A stretch of DNA of 12,845 nucleotides from an uncultured Chryseolinea sp. (GTDB taxonomy: Bacteria > Bacteroidota > Bacteroidia > Cytophagales > Cyclobacteriaceae), in contig CAMLER010000072.1 in assembly GCA_946478915.1 (NCBI GenBank), forward strand, positions 1 through 12,845, given 5' to 3'. The notes beneath the pieces were generated by a model, which saw only the letters and a program-made list of their open reading frames with translations, was not told where the DNA came from and did no database searches. The position numbers and the translations under genes were made by a program. Positions 6,113-12,845 of this stretch are shown one piece after another; the stretch's first letter is position 1, and every line of letters begins with the position of its first letter.

Positions 6113-7933
6113 TTATTTCTTCCGGCGCTTTCTTTCTTCCTCCGCTTTTCTCCTGGTTTCTTCGCTGGCTTTCATTGCCTCTTCCAGTTTACTCATGAAT
6201 CTGGATTTCTTTCCACCGCCTGCAGCATTCTTCTTTTTGTTTTCTTCCATGATCGCGCGGATCTTATCCTCATCCACAAACCTTTTAATGATAGCCTGCT
6301 GGATGAATGTGATTACAGTGGATACGAAATAATAAAAAGTAAGTCCGGCGGAGAATGAGTTGAGAACAAATAGAAAAATTACCGGCATAACCATTGACAT
6401 GGTTTTCATGGGTCCCTGGACTGACGATATTTGATTGTTCTGCCAAGTGTAAAGCAAGGTGGCAGCGGTCATGAGCAATGTAAAGATACTGATGTGACTC
6501 CCAAGAAATGGCACTTCAAATGGAAGTCTGATCAACGAATCATACGTTGACAAATCTTCTGCCCATAAGAATGGTTGCTGTCTCAGTTCGATGCTCGCGG
6601 GAAAAAGGTAGAACATCGCGAACAGGATCGGCATCTGCAGCAACACCGGAATGCAGCCGCTGATCGGGTTTACACCCACCTGCTGATACAACTTCATTTG
6701 TTCCTGCTGCACCTTTGTCATATCATCACCTACGCGTTCCTTGATTTCGTCAAGTTCTGGTTTCAACACCTTCATTTTTGCCATGCTGAGAAATGACTTG
6801 TAGGAAAGTGGGAACAAAACAAGCTTGAGAAGGATCACCAGGATGATGATGATGAGTCCGTAGTTTGAAATGAACTTTGTAAGGAAATGGAAAACCGGAA
6901 AGATCGCAAACTTGTTGATCCAGTTAACAGGAGGCCAACCCAGATAAACGTTTTTAGTGAAACCATCTGCGACGACACCGATGGTCTGGTAGTCATTAGG
7001 ACCGAAATAGAATTTGAAATCAGCCTGATTCTCCCTAATGTTTTTTGTGGGGATGAACAGCTTCGCATTTGCGCGTTTTACAACAGAGGTGTCGCTTTCG
7101 TTAATGGCTGTTTCGACTTCACCGCCGGAAAAGTTATTCTTAGCAATTATCGATGACAGGAAAAATTTTTCTTTTATGGTGATCCACTTCAACGGATCTG
7201 CAAATATTTCTGTCTCTGTATCGGTTGACCTTTCGCTAAGTTCATCAAAACCATCATTTTCTGAGTAATAAGTGATGGTAGAATAAATACGCGTGTCAGC
7301 CAGGTCTTTCTCAATAGGTTTAAGGATATTTTTCCACTGAAAAGTGAGATACTCTCCCGATAGTTTTTCTCCTATTCCCGTGCTTTCTATTTCATAAATA
7401 AGCTGGTAACCTTTAGCCGGAATTTTATAAAGATGTGTGACGCTTGAACCGTTATTCAGTGTAATTGAAAATCGTACCTCTGTCGTATCGCCATTTTGTT
7501 GCTGACTTGCATTATAGAAGAGTTTATATAGATCGATTTCCTTTCCTTGGTAAGTGGTCAAGAGGTTGAACTCATTGTTCGTCGGAGTAATTACTTTTAA
7601 TGGCTGCTGGCGATAAGTCTTGTATTTTTTTAATTCCACCTCGCGCAAGATCCCACCTCGGTTGCTAAAAGTATATTTGATGTCCTCGTTCTCTATGGAG
7701 GTTGAAGACTCTTGGCCCCTCATGCTTGCTGACAACTCCCCAAAAGTTGCTGCTAATGTGCTGTCGTTGGGTACCGATGCCTCTGCCGTACTGTCTTGTC
7801 TGCCCATCTCGGACGGAGTAGTGGACGGCTCTTGTTGCTGTGTAGGAGGGGGAGGAACAGGAGAAAACCAATAAAAGTACGCCATTAATAGCGCGGCAAT
7901 AAGTGTGAGTCCGATAGCTGAGTTCCTGTCCAT
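6113..7933 (-). CDS. yidC: Membrane protein insertase YidC
   Basis: Inserts and folds inner-membrane proteins, alone or with SecYEG. The protein has 606 residues, the long Gram-negative form. The first transmembrane segment is at about 7-22 (IGLTLIAALLMAYFYW). A Pro/Ser/Thr-rich linker and the periplasmic beta domain (about 80-335) follow. The conserved insertase core begins near 355: transmembrane segment LIIIILVILLKLVLFPL (360-376), the cytoplasmic coiled hairpin YKSFLSMAKMKVLKPELDEIKERVGDD with QEQMKLYQQVGVNPISGCIPVLLQMPI (410-436), then membrane segments near 434-446, 481-496 and 512-545. The C-terminal tail (565-606) is rich in Lys and Arg, suiting ribosome contact. The S23/IVP gene and repeat arrays separate it from pyrG, its usual close upstream neighbour in Bacteroidota. 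Confidence 0.96.
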   Translation of the reverse strand: MDRNSAIGLTLIAALLMAYFYWFSPVPPPPTQQQEPSTTPSEMGRQDSTAEASVPNDSTLAATFGELSASMRGQESSTSIENEDIKYTFSNRGGILREVELKKYKTYRQQPLKVITPTNNEFNLLTTYQGKEIDLYKLFYNASQQQNGDTTEVRFSITLNNGSSVTHLYKIPAKGYQLIYEIESTGIGEKLSGEYLTFQWKNILKPIEKDLADTRIYSTITYYSENDGFDELSERSTDTETEIFADPLKWITIKEKFFLSSIIAKNNFSGGEVETAINESDTSVVKRANAKLFIPTKNIRENQADFKFYFGPNDYQTIGVVADGFTKNVYLGWPPVNWINKFAIFPVFHFLTKFISNYGLIIIILVILLKLVLFPLSYKSFLSMAKMKVLKPELDEIKERVGDDMTKVQQEQMKLYQQVGVNPISGCIPVLLQMPILFAMFYLFPASIELRQQPFLWAEDLSTYDSLIRLPFEVPFLGSHISIFTLLMTAATLLYTWQNNQISSVQGPMKTMSMVMPVIFLFVLNSFSAGLTFYYFVSTVITFIQQAIIKRFVDEDKIRAIMEENKKKNAAGGGKKSRFMSKLEEAMKASEETRRKAEEERKRRKK

Positions 7934-7945
7934 GTATTAAATTAA

Positions 7946-7976
7946 GTTCAAAGTTTAAAGTTCAAGGTTCAAAGTT
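7946..7976. repeat. Heptamer array, left of the S23/IVP gene
   Basis: Four 7-bp units GTTCAAA, GTTTAAA, GTTCAAG, GTTCAAA plus a partial GTT. It fills most of the 47-bp gap between the S23/IVP stop and the yidC start, so it lies in the yidC leader. It is the inverted partner of the array at 8443-8512, sharing 13 exact bases (7957-7969). Confidence 0.85.
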
Positions 7977-7980
7977 GCGG

Positions 7981-8394
7981 TCACATGCTGCGTTCATCAG
8001 ACTTATTATTGAACTTTATTCCTTTCATTTTTGATTGCTTCAAGTAGACGATGAATCCCGTTAGCATTTTGCTAATTGAACGAATGTCATCCAAAAATAA
8101 ATCGCACTCAGCCCCATCGAGGTGTTTTCGATCTAATGCTCTGTATAATTGTGAGCGGACCTCACCAGCAGAGCCTCTGGCTATTGAAAGAAACTGAATG
8201 AATTCCTTTGTTCCTCCCCGCTCAAATCCTTCCGCAATGTTATCCATCACAGACCCCGTCGATCTGTTTATCTGATCACGGAGCGCATAGTCTTTTGAGA
8301 ATGATCCTGTTAATGTCAATTCAAATATCTGTTTTGATAGTATTCTTGCCTTCTGCCAGGCACCAATGTCTTCAAATGTTTTAATAGTAGCCAT
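7981..8394 (-). CDS. Four-helix bundle protein, S23 / 23S rRNA-intervening-sequence family
   Basis: A 137-residue, helix-rich protein of the family first seen as ORFs in intervening sequences of 23S rRNA genes (TIGR02436, PF05635-like). The start has the family opening FEDIGAWQKARILSKQIFEL (7-26). The strongest signature, DNIAEGFERGGTKEFIQFLS followed by IARGSAGEVRSQLYRA, spans about 51-86. Relatives form oligomeric four-helix bundles and resemble Avd, the accessory protein of diversity-generating retroelements, but no reverse transcriptase is in the window. Function is unknown. Here the gene is freestanding, with no rRNA around it. It lies between pyrG and yidC in the same direction as both, and is bounded by inverted heptamer arrays, which suggests it arrived as a unit. 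The C-terminal Lys-rich tail (about 118-137) is less conserved. Confidence 0.9.
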   Translation of the reverse strand: MATIKTFEDIGAWQKARILSKQIFELTLTGSFSKDYALRDQINRSTGSVMDNIAEGFERGGTKEFIQFLSIARGSAGEVRSQLYRALDRKHLDGAECDLFLDDIRSISKMLTGFIVYLKQSKMKGIKFNNKSDERSM

Positions 8395-8442
8395 ACAACG
8401 GTATTAATTACGAAACACAACATAAAAACTTCTAAACCAAGG

Positions 8443-8512
8443 CCCCAACCTCAAACCTCAAACCTTGAACTTTTAACTTTTAACCTTGAACTTTTAACTT
8501 TTAACTTTTAAC
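8443..8512. repeat. Heptamer array, right of the S23/IVP gene
   Basis: Ten 7-bp units in register: CCCCAAC, CTCAAAC twice, CTTGAAC, TTTTAAC twice, CTTGAAC, TTTTAAC three times. It is inverted relative to 7946-7976 (shared 13-mer at 8461-8473 and again at 8482-8494). The last base is the final base of the pyrG stop codon, and repeat-like sequence (TAAACCC, TAACCC) continues into the last pyrG codons. Confidence 0.88.
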
Positions 8513-10131
8513 TAAACCCTAACCCTCTTCCTCTCAATCGCCGCTTCTATGAACTTTACAAAGAGCGGATGTGGATTGAGGACGGTACTCTTTAACTCCG
8601 GGTGATATTGTACTCCGACAAACCAGGGATGGTCCTTCAACTCAACTACTTCAACAAGGTTTGTATCGGGGTTTACACCAACAGCTTTTAATCCGGCATG
8701 TTCGATCTGTTCCAGGTATTTGTTGTTGAACTCATATCGATGGCGGTGACGCTCTTCGATCATTGTTTCTCCGTAGGCAGCAAACGACTTGGTACCTTTC
8801 TTCAGCTTACAGTCATATGCCCCAAGCCGCATCGTACCACCCTTGTTGACGATCTTTTTCTGCTCTTCCATCATATCGATTACCGGGTGCTGTGTTTTAG
8901 GATTCAGTTCGGTTGAACTAGCTTCCAGCCCAAGAACATTCCGCGCAAATTCCACCACTGCACACTGCATCCCAAGGCAAATTCCGAAGAATGGGATTTT
9001 GTTTTCTCTAACGTACCGGATCGTTTCAATTTTTCCTTCCAGTCCCCGCTCACCAAATCCCGGCGCAACCAATATGCCGTCCATGTTTTTAAGCATAGAG
9101 TCAACTACATCTGGGTTAACATCTTCGGAGGAGATCCATCGAACGTTCACTTTGCAATCATTCTGTGCACCAGCGTGAACAAACGCTTCAGCAATAGACT
9201 TGTATGCGTCTGGTAATGAGACATATTTTCCAACCAATCCAACCGTAACCTCATTCACCGGATTTTTAAGCTTTCCCAAAAAACTTTTCCAGTGATCCAG
9301 CTTGGGTTCCTCCTTGGTAGATACCTTCAGTTTTGCCAACACGCGTTCATCCAATTTCTCTTTTCGCATGTGGATCGGGACATCGTAAATAGTCTCAGCA
9401 TCCATCGCTTCGATCACAGAGTTTATGTGGACGTTGCAAAAGAGTGCAAGCTTTTTTCTGATGTCATGAGGTAATGGTAATTCTGTCCGGCATACCAATA
9501 TATCCGGCTGAACACCGGCTTCAAGTAAATCTTTGACAGAATGCTGTGTTGGCTTGGTTTTCAGCTCTTTAGCTGCCTTCAGATATGGTATTAATGTAAG
9601 ATGAATGACTATGGCACTGTTAGGTGGAAGATCCCATTTTACCTGCCGCACCGTCTCAATGAAGGGGAGGGATTCGATGTCACCGACGCAACCCCCGATT
9701 TCTGTTATCACAAAATCGTATTCACCGGTTTCACCTAAAAGAAAAAGATTGCGCTTTATCTCGTCTGTAATATGTGGAATAACCTGTACGGTCTTACCCA
9801 GGTATTCACCTTTTCTCTCCTTGGTGATGACGTTGTTATAAATCCTTCCGGTAGTAACATTGTTGGCCTGAGAAGTACGGATGTTCAGAAACCTTTCATA
9901 GTGGCCGAGGTCAAGATCGGTCTCGGCTCCATCATCCGTCACGTAGCACTCCCCGTGCTCATAAGGATTTAGAGTTCCCGGATCAATATTGAGATAAGGA
10001 TCAAACTTCTGTATCGTGACCTTGAATCCCCGGGCCTGAAGCAACTGTGCCAGCGATGCTGCGATGATCCCTTTGCCCAACGACGAAGTCACACCCCCTG
10101 TTACAAAAATGTATTTAGCAGTTAATGACAT
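8512..10131 (-). CDS. pyrG: CTP synthase
   Basis: Makes CTP from UTP, ATP and glutamine, the last step of pyrimidine nucleotide synthesis. From the ATG at 10131 it has 539 residues, close to the E. coli enzyme (545). The N-terminal synthetase domain starts with the P-loop [10 protein letters not shown] (12-21), with [11 protein letters not shown] and [16 protein letters not shown] following. The C-terminal class I glutaminase domain has the nucleophile in FFGICLGMQ (Cys385) and the His/Glu pair in QYHPELKST (His510, Glu512). An in-frame ATG at 10164 is rejected: it adds 11 unlike residues and overlaps the -7 promoter match. The extreme C-terminus (RKRVRV) is read from sequence that continues the adjacent heptamer array. 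It is the first gene of the block leading to yidC. Confidence 0.97.
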
Positions 10132-10161
10132 GATTACAGTTACCTCAAAATAAATCGGGGG

Positions 10162-10169
10162 CAAAGGTA
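10162..10169 (-). promoter_or_regulatory. Candidate -7 element of the pyrG promoter
   Basis: TACCTTTG on the minus strand matches TAnnTTTG exactly, 30 nt before the pyrG ATG, giving a predicted leader of about 24 nt. No clear -33 TTG at the standard spacing was found. Its position supports the start at 10131. Confidence 0.5.
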
Positions 10170-10475: not shown

Positions 10476-12845
10476 ATGTGTGTAGTATTACAAAAGAGGT
10501 TATTCTGGATCATATCGTTCATATTGGTCGTCATCTGTTCGTCGCTGCAGGAATCGTTTGCCCAGGGATGTAATGGAGCCAACGGGACAGGTATATTTAC
10601 CGGATCCATAGCAAACCGCGACAATGGTACGCTTTGCGCCAACAGCCCTGTTCAGCCCGGGCTTATGGAAATCGACATCAGCAACATCGACGAAAGCGGT
10701 ACTATTCAATTCGAAATAAACTGGGATGACGGATCTGCGCCTCAGCGGGTGAACGCATTCAAGATAGCAGCCAACAGGTATTTTGCTCAGGTAACTCACC
10801 TGTTTCCCGCGAATGGCGCGCAAGTGCGGTGTGAGTACCGACCCGACGTACGGCTCGTTTTCAACGGTACGGTCTGTGCGGCGACCCTCGGCGTGCCACC
10901 GCGCTTTGTCCGTTGGAATACCGACGATCAGCAAACCGGTAACCTGGCACTTCTTGAAACCATAACAAATGTTAACGAATACCTTGTTTGTGCGGGGGTC
11001 GAAACCAATGTCACATTCACCGATCGCTCGGATCTGAATTGCGTTCCACCCGACCTGGTGCTTGGACCAAACGACAGAAGAAGATGGAGGCAGTTTGTAT
11101 ATGGAACCGCGAATACCATTACGGGATCTGTTCGAATCGGCGGAAGCACGACACCATTTCCTTCAAATGGTGCCGTTTCCATTTCCACTGAACCTATACT
11201 CACTTCCGGGTTTCCAACCACTACCACAGAAATCATAACAGTTCCCGCAACGGCACAGGTAGGCGAAATATTCGAGATCACGATGAACTACTGGAATACG
11301 TGTAACGCATTCCCTGCACGCCCTCCGGTGCAAGAGACGGCGCGCATCCGTATAGTTGCCCAGCCACCCGCTCCGACGGGAAATGACCTGACCGTTTGTA
11401 ACGGGACTACACCGGGCGCTTTTTCAATTGCAGGGGTACCTCCCGGGAACATCGTGAACTGGTACCGGAATGTTCCTGGAAGCCCTGATGCGCCAGGTAC
11501 ATTGATTACTTCAGGTACTTCAACAACGTTGGCGGTTAATTCGACCAACGTTCCTGGATACGTAAACAATACCACACCCGGGGTATACAGCGTTTGGGCG
11601 AGCTATGTTCCCAACGTTGCTAATGCACTTAATTGTGAGAGTCCTAAAATACAGTTGAGACGTACCATCCGGAATGTCCTGGCCGTCGCAAACCCTACCA
11701 CAGCGCCACCCGCGCAGGTATGTAACAATTCATCTTTCAACATAGTACTCCCTAATCCAGCCACAGAAACTTTTGGTGGGAATACACAATATACTTTTGC
11801 CGGCGATGTGGGTGTTAGCGTAGGCGCAACCACAGCAAATTCTGCGACGTTCAACGTGGCCGTTGCATTTGCACCGGGTGAGCTTTTTGTCGACCGGACC
11901 ATTTCAGTAACAAGAAGATATTCGACAAATCCGAACTGCGGCGCGACGCGGACTTTTACGGTGCGCGTTTACAACGAAACTGTTGGAGGTTCGCTTAGCA
12001 ACTTTCCTGATGTTTGCGAAGGCACAAGCGTAGGCCCAATTACACTCTCGGGCCATGTGGGCACGATCACAGGCTGGCAGGTTGAAATCAATGGTGGCGG
12101 TTGGAACCCTTATACCGGACCTGCCTCTGGAAATTCTATTACGCCTGGAATCATAAGCGACGGAGTCTACAGGTTCAGGGCTGTCATTGACAATGGACCA
12201 TGTAATACAGTAAACAGTACGATTGAAACAGTAACGGTTACAGATAACCCAGCTCCGCCGACCGCCGGAACGGATCAGGCGTTTTGTGGTTCGCTGGTTT
12301 CAGCCGCGCAAAATGCAACGCTTTCAGGAGGTGTTGGTACATGGAGTTATATTTCCAGCGTTCCTGCTGGACGGCCCTCGCCGACCTTCGTGGCTAACGA
12401 TGAAAACACAACTTTCACTATTGGAAGCACGGCCCAAGCCGGCGCTTATACCATGCGTTGGTCGGTTGTTGTGGGATCATGTACATTCGAAGATGATGTT
12501 ATAATTGATTTTGGTGCTAATCCTGCACCGGTTCCGCCAATGACAGTCAACCTTTGCGGAGAGTCAGGTAATCTAACCGCGCCCGTTCCAACCATTGGGT
12601 CTGGCGTTTGGACGATCATAAGTGGACCAAGTGGCTGTGTTACGGGTAACTGTCCCGAACTCACACTTGCCGATCCAACATCACCGACCTCAGCGATTTC
12701 CTTAAACGCTCCAATTACGTATGGGTCATATACTTTAGAGTGGCGTGTAATCAGCGGTATTTGCGCGCCTGCGTTTAATACGGCCACCGTTACATTCTTC
12801 CAGGATCCGACTGCCACCGCATCTGACATTAACGGCATATGCCTT
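10476..12845 (+). CDS. Large secreted Ig/PKD-like repeat protein, 5' part
   Basis: An uninterrupted reading frame of 790 codons from the ATG at 10476 to the window edge, with no stop; the 3' end is missing. Residues 1-29 form a clear signal peptide (basic start, hydrophobic FWIISFILVVICSS, cut after SFA). An N-terminal part has a PKD-like block (about 172-200, CAGVETNVTFTDRSDLNC). Then come repeats of about 90-108 residues, each opened by a hydrophobic residue, Cys and a small residue: VCNG (Cys308), VCNN (416), VCEG (514), FCGS (604), LCGE (694) and ICL (789). The repeats carry GTW or GVW turns and Thr/Ser/Pro/Gly/Asn-rich strands. This is the style of Bacteroidota cell-surface or type IX-secreted proteins, often ending in a gliding-motility-associated C-terminal domain. 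That domain would lie outside the window, so secretion route and role (adhesion, motility, matrix) are inference. It diverges from pyrG. Confidence 0.85.
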   Translation, partial: MCVVLQKRLFWIISFILVVICSSLQESFAQGCNGANGTGIFTGSIANRDNGTLCANSPVQPGLMEIDISNIDESGTIQFEINWDDGSAPQRVNAFKIAANRYFAQVTHLFPANGAQVRCEYRPDVRLVFNGTVCAATLGVPPRFVRWNTDDQQTGNLALLETITNVNEYLVCAGVETNVTFTDRSDLNCVPPDLVLGPNDRRRWRQFVYGTANTITGSVRIGGSTTPFPSNGAVSISTEPILTSGFPTTTTEIITVPATAQVGEIFEITMNYWNTCNAFPARPPVQETARIRIVAQPPAPTGNDLTVCNGTTPGAFSIAGVPPGNIVNWYRNVPGSPDAPGTLITSGTSTTLAVNSTNVPGYVNNTTPGVYSVWASYVPNVANALNCESPKIQLRRTIRNVLAVANPTTAPPAQVCNNSSFNIVLPNPATETFGGNTQYTFAGDVGVSVGATTANSATFNVAVAFAPGELFVDRTISVTRRYSTNPNCGATRTFTVRVYNETVGGSLSNFPDVCEGTSVGPITLSGHVGTITGWQVEINGGGWNPYTGPASGNSITPGIISDGVYRFRAVIDNGPCNTVNSTIETVTVTDNPAPPTAGTDQAFCGSLVSAAQNATLSGGVGTWSYISSVPAGRPSPTFVANDENTTFTIGSTAQAGAYTMRWSVVVGSCTFEDDVIIDFGANPAPVPPMTVNLCGESGNLTAPVPTIGSGVWTIISGPSGCVTGNCPELTLADPTSPTSAISLNAPITYGSYTLEWRVISGICAPAFNTATVTFFQDPTATASDINGICL

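Follow-up and report, generated by a model that had tools for sequence, protein, structure and literature searches.

The stretch of DNA analyzed here (the window; 12,845 nucleotides) harbors an S23/IVP gene at positions 7981–8394 of the minus strand, bracketed by inverted heptamer arrays at positions 8447–8513 and 7944–7976 and located between pyrG and yidC, both of which also lie on the minus strand. The features considered below are as follows, with 5΄ and 3΄ referring to the sense of the S23 gene.

8512–10164, minus strand: pyrG (CTP synthase; PF06418, PF00117), flanking host gene; ORF as listed, with a putative start
8447–8513, minus strand: 5΄ arm of tandem heptamers, with inner units GTTTGAG and outer units GTTAAAA/GTTCAAG read from the sequence; Tandem Repeats Finder rows 8447–8465 and 8468–8513; inverted partner 7944–7976
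8395–8446, minus strand: leader from the 5΄ arm to the S23 start codon, from the sequence
7981–8394, minus strand: S23/IVP (four helix bundle) gene, 137 aa; PF05635, TIGR02436; solved relative 2gsc_A (XCC0516)
7944–7976, minus strand: 3΄ arm of inverted heptamers, from Tandem Repeats Finder, the inverted repeat and RNA fold pairing with the 5΄ arm
6113–7933, minus strand: yidC (PF02096, PF14849), flanking host gene
2537–2810, no strand assigned: S23-less heptamer hairpin region at the lepB–dapB junction, from Tandem Repeats Finder, inverted repeats and shuffles; no S23 fragment found in it

In a profile search, the S23 ORF of the window scored 110.5 bits against PF05635 (cut-off 33.8) and 106.4 bits against TIGR02436 (four helix bundle protein; cut-off 24), and it accordingly belongs to the family. 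One solved relative was found, 2gsc_A (E = 1.3e-9), which PMC4990558 describes as a pentamer of four-helix bundles. Tandem Repeats Finder detected a period of 7 at positions 7944–7976 (AAGTTCA) and 8468–8513 (AACTTTT), the latter array being adjoined by the row at 8447–8465 (AACCTCA). Positions 7944–7976 and 8475–8507 form an inverted repeat of 33 nt with 91% complementarity, and the longest exact inverted match between the arms is 13 nt, as stated in an earlier note on this DNA, which had described the S23 gene as lying between opposed arrays of 7-bp units. This arrangement was confirmed by comparison with 20,000 dinucleotide-block shuffles, none of which reached the arm complementarity score of 27 (maximum, 20). 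The limits that the note had assigned to the unit were correct on one side: the 5΄ array, which extends to 8513, overlaps the pyrG stop codon (8512–8514), but the 3΄ array begins at 7944, which is 10 nt, not 1 nt, upstream of the yidC ATG (7931–7933).

In RNA fold predictions, the arms pair with each other and the S23 ORF lies in the loop in both the MFE and the centroid structures (z = –3.2, with 1 of 100 shuffles folding as well). Apart from S23, the segment between the arms contains no ORF of 70 aa or more, consistent with the earlier statement that the cassette encodes no transposase, and the cassette thus lacks the transposase of its own that characterizes a classical insertion sequence. 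An Rfam scan of the window yielded no match at the gathering threshold. As in the intervening sequences (IVSs) of 23S rRNA, the S23 ORF is enclosed by terminal inverted repeats able to form a stem; however, the window cassette adjoins pyrG and yidC instead of lying inside a 23S rRNA gene. By analogy, it would work like an IVS, with excision by RNase III, yet it is not an rRNA IVS. Elsewhere in the window, a long plus-strand ORF (10476–12845; 790 aa) runs off the end and has a G+C content of ~0.49–0.53, above that of the rest.

PF05635 was present in all 14 genomes behind the selected loci (72 rows). In a second set of 61 genomes, sampled across the phylum Bacteroidota, 45 contained it (matches summing to 260), two genomes being shared between the two sets. 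Up to 16 S23 genes occurred per genome, and about half of the ~320 distinct S23 rows in 73 genomes were tested. The 158 genes concerned are non-redundant, cover 85 aa or more of the domain and have flanks suitable for analysis; the sample is non-random and favors good profile matches or best-scoring loci and S23-rich genomes. Mutually complementary arms of 7- or 8-nt units were observed for 110 of these 158 genes, compared with 5 of 687 other genes of the same loci (odds ratio 313), so that arrays of this kind are not equally frequent between unrelated genes, a condition under which the earlier note would have failed. Likewise, cognate flanks scored at least 15 in 120/158 S23 genes, compared with 3.5% of non-cognate flank pairs, and the best arm period among these 120 genes was 7 in 80 and 8 in 32. 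In the first batch of loci, 89 inverted arm pairs were found at period 7 (41 enclosing S23) and 16 at period 8, with 0, 2, 0, 0 and 0 at periods 5, 6, 9, 10 and 11, respectively. A first scan with a strict array threshold had detected arrays on both sides of 10 out of 71 S23 genes and on one side of 17; the cognate-alignment test is more sensitive, and both results stand.

These counts bear on the possibility that the arrays represent intergenic heptamer repeats of an ordinary kind, adjoining S23 by chance. Cyanobacterial STRRs are intergenic tandem heptamers and resemble the arms in this respect. The same likeness extends to the TAACTGA repeats of Beggiatoaceae, Cyanobacteria and Bacteroidetes, although PMC4679880 describes these as repeats in direct orientation that mostly precede start codons, with one inverted case, and the terms S23 and four helix are absent from its main text. 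Consistent with such an origin, heptamer hairpins lacking S23 occur in the window itself (2537–2810) and elsewhere, as 48 of the 89 period-7 pairs enclose no S23 (16 of these 48 rows come from one locus, L110). However, chance adjacency is contradicted by the difference between S23 and other genes; of the five positive controls, the three listed are L115 and L149, both of them S23 genes excluded as duplicates, and a PDDEXK_3 gene (L096). It is also contradicted by the tracking of the S23 protein by the repeat word and unit length, which is described below. We therefore consider this explanation extremely unlikely.

The earlier note had proposed inspecting the flanks of other S23 genes for such arrays and had named array-less S23 genes as evidence against it. 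Most S23 genes carry arrays, but some do lack them: the 48/158 genes that fall below the criterion include nine at one conserved array-less locus, and others have arms that are either weak or strong but of a different period. These nine genes indicate that the S23 family also has a non-cassette form. The array-less locus is found in nine Chryseolinea-group genomes (L059, L060, L061, L071, L072, L105, L106, L107 and L108), and its DNA homology extends 65–264 nt past the gene. On the S23 tree, the presence of arms clusters moderately (32 changes; shuffled mean 41.5, minimum 32).

Complementary flanks were also observed for nuclease genes of the PDDEXK_3/GxxExxY family (PF13366/TIGR04256), in 24 of 30 cases compared with 6.0% of non-cognate pairs, the best repeat spacing ranging from 6 to 13 nt with no dominant period. 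The genes of this family in which such short-unit arrays were noted come from L230–L259 (the 24 of 30), L096:4165–4560 and L097:4182–4568. Separately, a 172-aa ORF at L043:13119–13637, a control gene with complementary flanks, has a weak match to Y1_Tnp (E = 0.0074, below the cut-off) and possibly represents a REP-type arrangement.

The repeat word varies between loci (GTTAATC, CGTTATC, AGTCAGG, GTAAGTG, GGTCCAT, CGGGTTA and many more), and the two arms of one locus match. Read inward, the arms have a fixed polarity, with GTT appearing 367 times versus 48 for AAC and GGT 242 times versus 6 for ACC; they contain 10% C and are rich in GTT, AGT and GGT, the reverse complements of which are rare. 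S23 identity predicts the similarity of arms at unrelated sites (Mantel r = 0.175, above 2,000/2,000 permutations), and this tendency remained once S23 proteins at least 70% identical were removed (r = 0.211, again above all permutations). Unit length (7 or 8) also tracks the S23 tree, with 12 changes compared with a shuffled mean of 18.9 (0/2,000 as low). Because similar S23 proteins carry similar words and unit length follows the S23 tree, the gene and its arms tend to be inherited together. In absolute terms the correlation between word and protein is weak, and it is equally compatible with shared descent and with protein–repeat recognition. With regard to the force that keeps the arms alike, G–U wobble mismatches between them numbered 168 in the sense and 170 in the antisense orientation; this nil asymmetry leaves selection on the sense RNA unsupported, and the force may therefore act on DNA, for example through template switching between inverted arms.

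We compared the pyrG–yidC junction among relatives. The window is chromosomal DNA of a Chryseolinea-like bacterium, its closest YidC matches being from Chryseolinea genomes (85% and 83%), and pyrG adjoins yidC in 39 of the 47 loci fetched. An S23 gene lies between the two genes in the window and in one of these 39 relatives, the closest one (L001); it is absent from the other 38, in which the gap is at most 276 nt, and the empty junctions that the earlier note had suggested seeking thus exist. The S23 protein of L001 is 72% identical to that of the window, and its arms consist of related but different heptamers. The same-side arms of the window and L001 are alike at 46/58 and 44/53 positions, and the two arms within each locus at 30/33 and 29/33, respectively, figures that are not like for like; since same-side arms are not clearly less alike than within-locus arms, concerted evolution of the arms is unproved. 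At this junction, one of the more distant relatives (L010) carries a short hairpin of heptamers and no gene. When decayed S23 was sought in stop-to-stop fragments of 45 yidC loci and the window, including the lepB–dapB hairpin and the L010 insert, just the two intact genes of the window and L001 were recovered.

Alleles with and without the gene were found at two other sites. At site B, between ETF-QO-like and ferredoxin genes, five of eight genomes of one genus have the cassette and the other three lack the gene. The flanking genes of the empty allele L227 overlap as ATGA, and in the filled allele L222, an arm provides the first gene with a new TAA stop codon while the ATG of the second gene is kept; L228 is empty like L227, and L229 lacks the gene and has ~90 nt of other sequence. 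The gene and arms are thus present or absent jointly in the aligned alleles, and inspection by eye revealed no target-site duplication at this empty site, the best and the one clean case. At the third site, L214 is filled, whereas L216–L218 lack the gene and carry a small hairpin of AGCTATC-like units (~1.5 units in L216 and L218, five in L217), so that insertion and replacement are indistinguishable there; the contig of L215 starts 116 nt before the match and is uninformative, and L219–L221 (68–72% identity) fell outside the alignment. Together with the 38/39 relatives that lack the gene at the pyrG–yidC junction and the frequency of arms around S23 genes, these alleles support the view that the gene and its arrays form one unit, as the earlier note had supposed.

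The same comparisons uphold in part the earlier interpretation of a mobile or once-mobile cassette, with arrays acting as ends or hairpins: filled and empty alleles exist, but movement itself was not caught. A comparison of 112 S23 genes revealed no pair at unrelated sites with an identity of 85% or more, and recent transposition was consequently not observed. DNA homology between S23 loci is mostly restricted to the gene among the matches listed, and is therefore too short for mapping the ends of the element. The tandem S23 cluster L147–L149 was considered as a clean cassette loss and rejected, as the ~145 nt missing from G052 relative to G067 lie within one S23 gene and correspond to a partial deletion.

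Several genomes contain short heptamer hairpins that lack S23. In the window, the outer arms of the lepB–dapB hairpin are located at 2537–2564 and 2783–2810 (TCCGTTA/TAACGGA; 0/20,000 shuffles as high), and an inner hairpin of AAGGAAT-like units at 2625–2651 and 2677–2703. The genome of the closest relative contains an S23 cassette with CGTTATC arms (L082). A search of a single genome (G008) with the L010 hairpin returned at least 65 rows, counting both strands (40 of 200 candidates scored). Within the 250-nt segment examined per locus, inverted pairs with loops of 3 to 41 nt were present in 22 of the 30 loci obtained, four of these 22 duplicating another locus on the opposite strand. Gene-less hairpins separated by over 1 kb from every S23 gene of the locus matched the S23 words of their own genome better than expected, at 0.608 compared with 0.450 for permuted labels (P = 0.0006, n = 17). 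Across 14 genomes, hairpin density correlated with the number of S23 genes (Spearman 0.67), but nine of the 17 hairpins come from one genome. These results supersede a looser word test (own genome 0.654, others 0.371, own genome best in just 8/26), which included overlapping hairpins and ones near S23 genes. Upstream of site B, a gene-less octamer hairpin has a loop that is exactly inverted between L222 and L226, with a different hairpin at that position in L224; the inversion fits DNA-level events between inverted arms, which are expected to invert the loop.

The arrangement extends beyond Bacteroidota. In a plasmid collection, 24 records matched the window S23, and the 16 that were read comprise 14 from cyanobacteria, one from Riemerella and one from Azospirillum; complementary arms were present around 15 of these 16 genes, compared with 12.5% of non-cognate pairs. 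On the Azospirillum lipoferum plasmid AZO_p2, S23 lies inside a 23S rRNA gene (RF02541 spans the whole 2.3-kb locus), and the ORF is located between inverted GGACGGA/GGACAGA units. According to PMC4990558, the Coxiella 23S IVS has a 28-bp terminal stem with GACAGAT heptamers at the RNase III cut, and its excision by RNase III was demonstrated in vitro; the same paper calls it unclear where 23S rRNA IVSs originate and what function they have. The link of the S23 family to sequence inserted in rRNA, which the earlier note had drawn from general knowledge of the family, is thus direct, and the rRNA IVSs have the same anatomy as far as two cases go: an S23 ORF in a stem closed by terminal inverted repeats, as in Coxiella, Leptospira and others, with heptamers in the stem region in Coxiella (PMC4990558) and in the Azospirillum 23S gene. 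They differ in that cassettes of the window type lie between protein genes, reach the numbers per genome given above and have S23-less relatives. Among the matches listed in the open-access literature, the Coxiella IVS heptamers were found, and no report was found of inverted heptamer arms around S23 outside rRNA.

Another reading of the arms is regulatory: as a pair of transcription terminators or insulators, they would shield a resident gene from its surroundings and would not constitute the ends of an element. The stable pairing of the arms in the fold prediction would suit this, as would the location of S23-less hairpins where relatives have a terminator-like hairpin. However, a terminator would fold on itself, whereas arms ~500 nt apart complement each other and track the S23 lineage; moreover, the gene and arms are jointly present or absent at site B, and such arms occur inside the Azospirillum 23S rRNA gene. 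These observations make the regulatory reading unlikely.

We further considered whether the cassette might be moved by proteins encoded elsewhere. PF05635 resembles Avd, the accessory protein of DGRs, in sequence and in its four-helix-bundle structure, according to PMC10053308, and one S23 protein matches the bAvd model below the cut-off (29.1 bits versus 40); S23 could on this basis be an Avd-like accessory of a cassette moved in trans by a reverse transcriptase of the DGR or group II type. However, RVT_1 matches are absent from 14 of the 25 genomes with at least five S23 genes, so that a reverse transcriptase partner is unlikely, and the rank correlation between RVT_1 and S23 was 0.03 over 61 genomes. 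No reverse transcriptase was found beside the window S23, among ten window proteins scanned (the ORF at 10476–12845 being outside this set), and in this respect the window differs from a DGR. The helper of this type that the earlier note had hinted at through Avd is therefore unsupported, and we regard the reading as very unlikely.

In REP/BIME systems with RAYT transposases, inverted repeats border a gene and are also dispersed in gene-less form. S23 cassettes are similar, being genes flanked by inverted repeats with gene-less copies dispersed, and the hairpins might accordingly be mobilized by Y1 (IS200-like) transposases with S23 as cargo. Y1_Tnp and S23 counts are correlated over 61 genomes (Spearman 0.56, uncorrected for kinship or general mobile-element load), and the S23-less hairpins of G008 are dispersed in a REP-like manner. 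However, Y1_Tnp matches are absent from 4/25 S23-rich genomes, and PDDEXK_3, which is likewise absent from 4/25, correlates better with S23 counts (0.69, uncorrected for kinship). In addition, the gene between the window arms is S23 and not a Y1 transposase, and the arms are tandem 7- or 8-mers, the word of which changes from cassette to cassette. Mobilization of this kind appears improbable, and no transposase or reverse transcriptase partner of the cassette was identified.

The window cassette is best read as a hairpin cassette of the IVS type outside rRNA, inherited and seldom moved as a unit. We consider it likely that it is akin to 23S rRNA IVSs, in which a long imperfect palindrome with arms of tandem 7-nt units holds the S23/IVP gene in its loop. 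The same layout, with a new word each time, surrounds the S23 family in many bacteria and occurs inside an rRNA gene, which suggests that the cassette kind is widespread; it has been little noticed and is probably mobile. The cassette would, with high probability, have arrived whole, by insertion. By analogy with the rRNA IVSs, it is rather likely that the arms would pair in RNA with the gene in the loop and that RNase III could excise it, such that insertion between operon genes would be nearly harmless; a similar degree of confidence applies to the idea that the arms are kept alike on DNA, through template switching or through conversion involving the two inverted arms. Somewhat more tentatively, the S23 protein might recognize its own repeat hairpin and help the cassette to persist or be copied, binding being no more than a natural guess.

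In its broadest form, the interpretation would make S23/IVP the protein component of an unrecognized class of bacterial mobile hairpins, in which each cassette has its own 7- or 8-nt word, putatively recognized by its own S23 protein, and spreads with dispersed gene-less copies of that word; the rRNA IVSs would then be one small branch and the GxxExxY (PDDEXK_3) nuclease genes a sister class with longer, less regular units. We regard this proposal as evenly balanced between right and wrong. The rRNA IVS cases would form part of a wider group of gene-in-hairpin cassettes, and each protein of S23/IVP, a common family without known function, gains a candidate cognate nucleic acid that is directly testable. 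The cassettes also offer a source for some intergenic heptamer repeats.

S23 cassettes were further observed within CRISPR operons of cyanobacterial plasmids (L209, L211 and L297), in the order cas6–S23–cas4 in two and cas10/cmr2–S23–cmr3 in one. In PMC10910872, the legend of a figure about CRISPR-linked proteins mentions the 23S rRNA IVP. The S23 genes in these operons may be passengers and not parts of the CRISPR systems.
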